NCBI GenBank assembly: GCA_030654175.1
Contig: JAURXZ010000033.1
Location: forward strand, 62,001-126,000
Direction: 5' to 3'
Length of the DNA stretch: 64,000 nt
DNA from: Bacteroidia bacterium
Lineage (GTDB): Bacteria > Bacteroidota > Bacteroidia > 2-12-FULL-35-15
The notes below the pieces were generated by a model, which was given only the letters and a program-made list of their open reading frames with translations, made no database searches and was not told the DNA's origin. Shown in pieces: positions 27,982-28,069 of this stretch. The translations under genes and the position numbers were made by a program. Positions within the stretch are counted from its first letter, which is position 1. The number at the start of each line of letters is the position of its first letter.

Positions 27982-28069
27982 TGGCGCTGCTTCCAGTGGG
28001 ACCCGAAGCAGTTATCCAAGGGGTCCAGTCCGAGATAACGAGAACCTGTCTTAACAAGCACCCACGCCA
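27982..28069. ncRNA. Candidate structured RNA or DNA site with pseudoknot potential
   Basis: TGGCG/CGCCA and TGCTT/AAGCA closing helices; GGACCC(27999-28004)/GGGTCC(28021-28026) interleaved with GTTATC(28011-28016)/GATAAC(28034-28039); GC-rich against AT-rich flanks; occupies the intergenic gap. Confidence 0.5.

Follow-up and report, generated by a model that had tools for sequence, protein, structure and literature searches.

The early region of the prophage in the window, by which we mean the whole 64,000-nt stretch analysed here, raises the question of whether a short GC-rich block between two genes is a structured nucleic acid and, if so, of what kind and to what end. GC-rich intergenic regions of AT-rich genomes are reportedly a search criterion for candidate structured RNAs, and the AT-rich setting ascribed to this block was readily confirmed: its 88 nt have a GC content of 0.57 and provide the highest 80-nt window of the 12-kb early region, where such windows average 0.33. 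The remaining early-gene gaps of at least 30 nt have GC contents of 0.16–0.33, so the GC peak is restricted to the gap that holds the block. As originally described, the block lies between two ORFs and occupies most of a 127-nt gap, starting 7 nt past the ORF A stop codon and ending 32 nt ahead of the ORF B ATG. The minus strand is the sense strand of ORF A and ORF B alike, and the block is present in a single copy in its own genome. Between it and ORF B, a 26-nt sequence (27958-27983) recurs with 81% identity at 29918-29943, ahead of gene 29825, the first of the early genes; the two copies may represent a common leader or promoter motif.

Table. Predicted elements of the block and its flanking genes, in window coordinates.
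Feature	Position	Strand	Basis
Structured block, four-way junction with kissing contact	27982-28069	-	predicted; GC, folding, shuffles
P1 5' strand, UGGCGU (partner 27982-27987)	28064-28069	-	pair probabilities 0.54-1.0
P1 3' strand, GCGCCA	27982-27987	-	pair probabilities
P2 hairpin, GGG/CUC and GCUUGU/ACAGGU, loop UAAG	28040-28063	-	pair probabilities 0.85-1.0
P3 hairpin, GUUAUCU/GGAUAAC, 15-nt loop with GGACCC	28011-28039	-	pair probabilities 0.92-1.0
P4 hairpin, UGCUUC/GAAGCA, 11-nt loop starting GGGUCC	27988-28010	-	pair probabilities 0.86-1.0
Kissing strand GGACCC, P3 loop (partner 27999-28004)	28021-28026	-	predicted
Kissing strand GGGUCC, P4 loop (partner 28021-28026)	27999-28004	-	predicted
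ORF A, 118 aa, operon gene upstream of block, orphan	28077-28433	-	
ORF B, 93 aa, gene downstream of block	27668-27949	-	

A script recovered every helix named in the original prediction, each of them perfect: TGGCG (27982-27986) with CGCCA (28065-28069), TGCTT (27988-27992) with AAGCA (28056-28060), CTGCTTC (27987-27993) with GAAGCAG (28005-28011), GGACCC (27999-28004) with GGGTCC (28021-28026) and GTTATC (28011-28016) with GATAAC (28034-28039). The last two interleave with loops of 6, 4 and 7 nt, exactly as claimed, and one further perfect helix that had gone undescribed pairs GTGGG (27996-28000) with CCCAC (28061-28065). The block was compared with dinucleotide shuffles, which preserve its GC content. 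Its maximum disjoint Watson–Crick pairing of 22 bp, a strand-neutral count, was matched by 2 of 1000 shuffles, and its three helices of at least 6 bp were equalled in 5 of 1000, although all of these p values are post hoc because the block was chosen for its structured look. The post hoc choice favours an explanation in which the block is a chance or passing foreign GC-rich fragment in a mosaic early region, with functionless complementarity. A helix excess at the 0.2–0.75% level against GC-keeping shuffles speaks against this, as does a strand preference that agrees with the genes.

This preference is clear from thermodynamic folding. The minus-strand RNA has a minimum free energy (MFE) of -34.9 kcal/mol (z -1.99, equalled or bettered by 6 of 200 shuffles), compared with -24.0 kcal/mol for the plus strand (z -0.46, 68 of 200). 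When one crossing helix was permitted, using a simple scheme of our own that combines constrained MFE, stacking energy and a 7 kcal/mol penalty, 3 of 400 shuffles did as well as the minus strand and 114 of 400 as well as the plus strand. Only the minus-strand RNA thus folds better than dinucleotide shuffles, by a modest and post hoc margin, and the strand on which the block had first been read was not upheld. The idea of a structured, probably functional nucleic acid with a pseudoknot-type contact is accordingly supported for minus-strand RNA. A minus-strand z of about -2 is modest, and the early region contains stronger nested folds: strong stem-loops at 24601-24750, inside the 23953-25374 ORF, are its best (z approximately -8, plus strand), and 29351-29450, inside 29232-29825, is another strong nested stem-loop site.

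As DNA, the inverted repeats are strand-neutral and could in principle bind a protein, support recombination or fold as single-stranded DNA. We consider a DNA-level site highly unlikely, given that the fold predicted with RNA parameters only is better on one strand and includes G-U pairs, and that the block is single copy in the genome. The folded single-stranded DNA site suggested earlier consequently draws no support from folding with the RNA energy model.

The predicted minus-strand ensemble is close to a single state, in which the centroid equals the MFE structure and pair probabilities approach 1 for P2–P4 and for the core of P1. The four helices would meet in a junction with zero unpaired bases, and the best crossing helix is the 6-bp pairing of GGACCC in the P3 loop with GGGUCC in the P4 loop, a single complementarity from which we infer that a kissing contact may form. 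As GGGUCC directly follows the P4 5' strand, the kissing helix could stack on P4, while P3 (7 bp) would sit beside P4 (6 bp) at similar length, with linkers of 6, 3 and 5 nt bridging the rest. The original model had counted TGCTT/AAGCA, with TGGCG/CGCCA, among its closing helices and considered a switch possible between this outer pairing and a competing hairpin. On the minus strand, the outer helix has a probability of about 0 and costs approximately 10 kcal/mol to force, whereas the TGCTTC/GAAGCA pairing of P4 has a probability of about 1; a switch is therefore unlikely.

We take the gap between ORF A and ORF B to be non-coding. A structure model of the ORF B protein features a confident N-terminal helix (residues 2–35) followed by strands, and a helix that begins at residue 2 would be consistent with a 27949 start and with a gap free of coding sequence. 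The ORF B frame is nevertheless open upstream across the whole gap, and the ORF A frame has an A AAA AAG heptamer 19 nt ahead of P1, features that could suit translational recoding, in which frameshifting or readthrough, stimulated by the fold, joins ORF A to ORF B. The ORF B frame is equally open in 6.8% of shuffles, and over the block itself 24% of shuffles likewise leave two of three frames open. In recoding sites, the spacer before a stimulatory structure is usually shorter than 19 nt. In addition, the -1 slippage frame ends at a stop within P2, and an A-to-B fusion needs a +1 shift, which together make recoding very improbable. The C-terminal half of ORF B has weak relatives in Flavobacterium phages, and a fold search with ORF B returned no significant match. 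An inverted-repeat element upstream of the ORF B relative in phage FPSV-D15 was considered and rejected as a dispersed Flavobacterium phage repeat unlike the block. A dispersed inverted-repeat element of Flavobacterium psychrophilum phages (12 records, 29 places) was noted at L076 2204-2392.

The searches identified no relative of the block. No Rfam 15 family scored at or above its gathering threshold at the block, and permissive filters yielded only two sub-threshold microRNA models (E 0.86 and 5.5). The earlier suggestion of a ribozyme found no backing, with no Rfam ribozyme match under permissive filters at E up to 10, and ARAGORN identified 0 tRNA or tmRNA genes in the window. Elsewhere in the window, Rfam identified a DUF805b RNA (RF02914, 42.9 bits) at 14756-14791 on the minus strand, just upstream of the 14020-14733 gene, for whose protein a single-sequence structure model was uninformative (mean pLDDT 34.5). 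Comparison with phages and plasmids by blastn revealed nothing resembling the block. A single-sequence covariance model, which could miss diverged homologs, had the block as its sole match across approximately 830 genomes, drawn from partly overlapping sets (its own genome, 37 genomes of the genus, 399 of the phylum and 396 of the class). Viral contigs were searched with three patterns (P3 with the kissing 5' half, P4 with the kissing 3' half, and the loop letters), and every match was without the remaining helices; cmsearch on most of these loci gave one chance-like match (14.3 bits, E 2.1). Viral contigs also contained no relatives detectable via ORF A, ORF B, the 23953 protein, the 20206 family or ORF E. 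A weak ORF A match in another genome (G011:C135) was dropped after reading, as the locus was not phage-like. This lack of homologs in the genomes and in the viral, phage and plasmid collections fits the chance or foreign-fragment explanation, which we still regard as unlikely.

The source genus is the sole representative of its order among the genomes examined, and the prophage element encodes a 237-aa protein. Its own genome has three more relatives of this protein (33–35% identical), and seven members of the genus have others. Synteny led to an element in G001:C72 that resembles the one in the window from its left part as far as the 20206 gene, beyond which chromosomal genes follow; an imperfect stem-loop, seen by eye and extending over approximately 110 nt, adjoins its end (L050 5130-5241, minus strand). 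The nearest relative is genome G022, with 80% identity in the 237-aa protein. Its early region appears to be on L080, a contig of an uncultured Bacteroidetes bacterium metagenome-assembled genome: the R2 model matches G022 contig C665, whose contig number is also that of the L080 record, with a score equal to that for L080, from which we infer the identity of the two records. L080 retains ORF E (80% identity), a weak ORF C and genes related to L, M and O. ORF A, ORF B and the block were all undetected on L080, the G022 genome being incomplete (78%), and their joint absence from the nearest relative prophage is a further point for a passing foreign fragment. By eye, L080 1412-3358, within the relative's early region, contains a gene for a reverse transcriptase and, close to it, two or three repeats (GGCTTCGGCCTCTCGT...), an arrangement like that of a diversity-generating retroelement; other genes occupy this place in the window.

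A different structure is shared by the two prophages. A minus-strand hairpin at 26345-26418, 1.6 kb from the block and lying in the gap 26310-26367 and its flank, is conserved at L080 1288-1363 (z -4.07 and -4.85). In the pairwise alignment, 97.5% of cells are paired, two pairs are compensatory, with both sides changed, and the loop GAATAC..AG..TAAAAACT..AA is conserved. An alignment shuffle control did as well in 125 of 500 cases, a test with little power on two rows only, and the hairpin has no Rfam match. The copy in this prophage overlaps the end of ORF J, while the L080 copy comes after the stop of another gene, so this conservation does not derive from a shared protein. A conserved hairpin in the same operon region suggests that this phage group probably uses structured RNA there.

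Taken with this hairpin and with the ORF B start at 27949, the evidence leads us to favour, tentatively, an RNA element carried on the prophage's leftward polycistronic early mRNA, most likely a cis-acting intercistronic fold. Several lines of evidence point in this direction: the sense-strand fold preference with same-strand genes on either side, the near-unit pair probabilities, the helix excess over shuffles and the GC peak confined to one gap. The reading is also supported by the lack, in the block or gap, of an intrinsic terminator (a short GC hairpin with a T run; P1 encloses 76 nt) and of a promoter-like site by the sigma-70 consensus, which may not fit Bacteroidetes. The same missing signals weigh against a somewhat unlikely alternative, an independent or processed trans-acting prophage sRNA that derives from the early transcript and targets host or phage RNA or protein. 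Its attractions are the GC outlier composition and a self-contained, compact fold with P1 closing both ends and loops of 15 and 11 nt available, whereas the one known copy offers no conserved sequence that would name a target. A cis role is the most likely choice over a trans sRNA, a preference taken from position alone.

If the cis-acting reading is correct, the early leftward mRNA would carry the block between ORF A and ORF B and fold into P1–P4, with the P3-loop GGACCC paired to the P4-loop GGGUCC and the kissing helix stacked on P4. Such a stable fold could uncouple the fate of one gene from that of the other by protecting the upstream mRNA 3' end from 3'-to-5' exonucleases, by limiting ORF B expression, or both, and a phage or host protein might bind it. 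The block can credibly be read as an orphan structured RNA in the early operon of this prophage, with a probable cis role. If transcribed, as we suppose, it would be one more orphan structured RNA in the early regions of Bacteroidetes prophages, which are little explored, and the tight geometry predicted for it makes probing easy. A bolder proposal, that it represents a new and very compact class of phage RNA with no unpaired junction bases and a kissing lock between adjacent arms, used in early-operon control or in trans, is unlikely at present; as a single sequence without covariation, the block is a candidate and not a new class.

Known systems offer partial parallels. The cobalamin riboswitch core is a four-way junction with a loop–loop kissing contact, and the block is alike in both respects, but is much shorter and has no Rfam match to any such family. 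As a four-helix cloverleaf of 88 nt with a CCA end, it is also reminiscent of tRNA and tRNA-like molecules, yet its CCA is paired in P1, its contact joins the adjacent arms P3 and P4, and ARAGORN does not recognise it. Type III toxin–antitoxin RNAs (ToxI-like) are small pseudoknot RNAs of phages and plasmids, comparable to a small pseudoknotted RNA upstream of a small gene, although the block has no tandem repeat of a unit, and neither Pfam nor PHROGs assigns ORF B to a toxin family. A further parallel is with the GC-rich intergenic candidate RNAs of the approach in PMC6429828: while those candidates are generally backed by homolog comparison and the block is one sequence, it is likewise a GC-rich gap in AT-rich DNA with a predicted fold.
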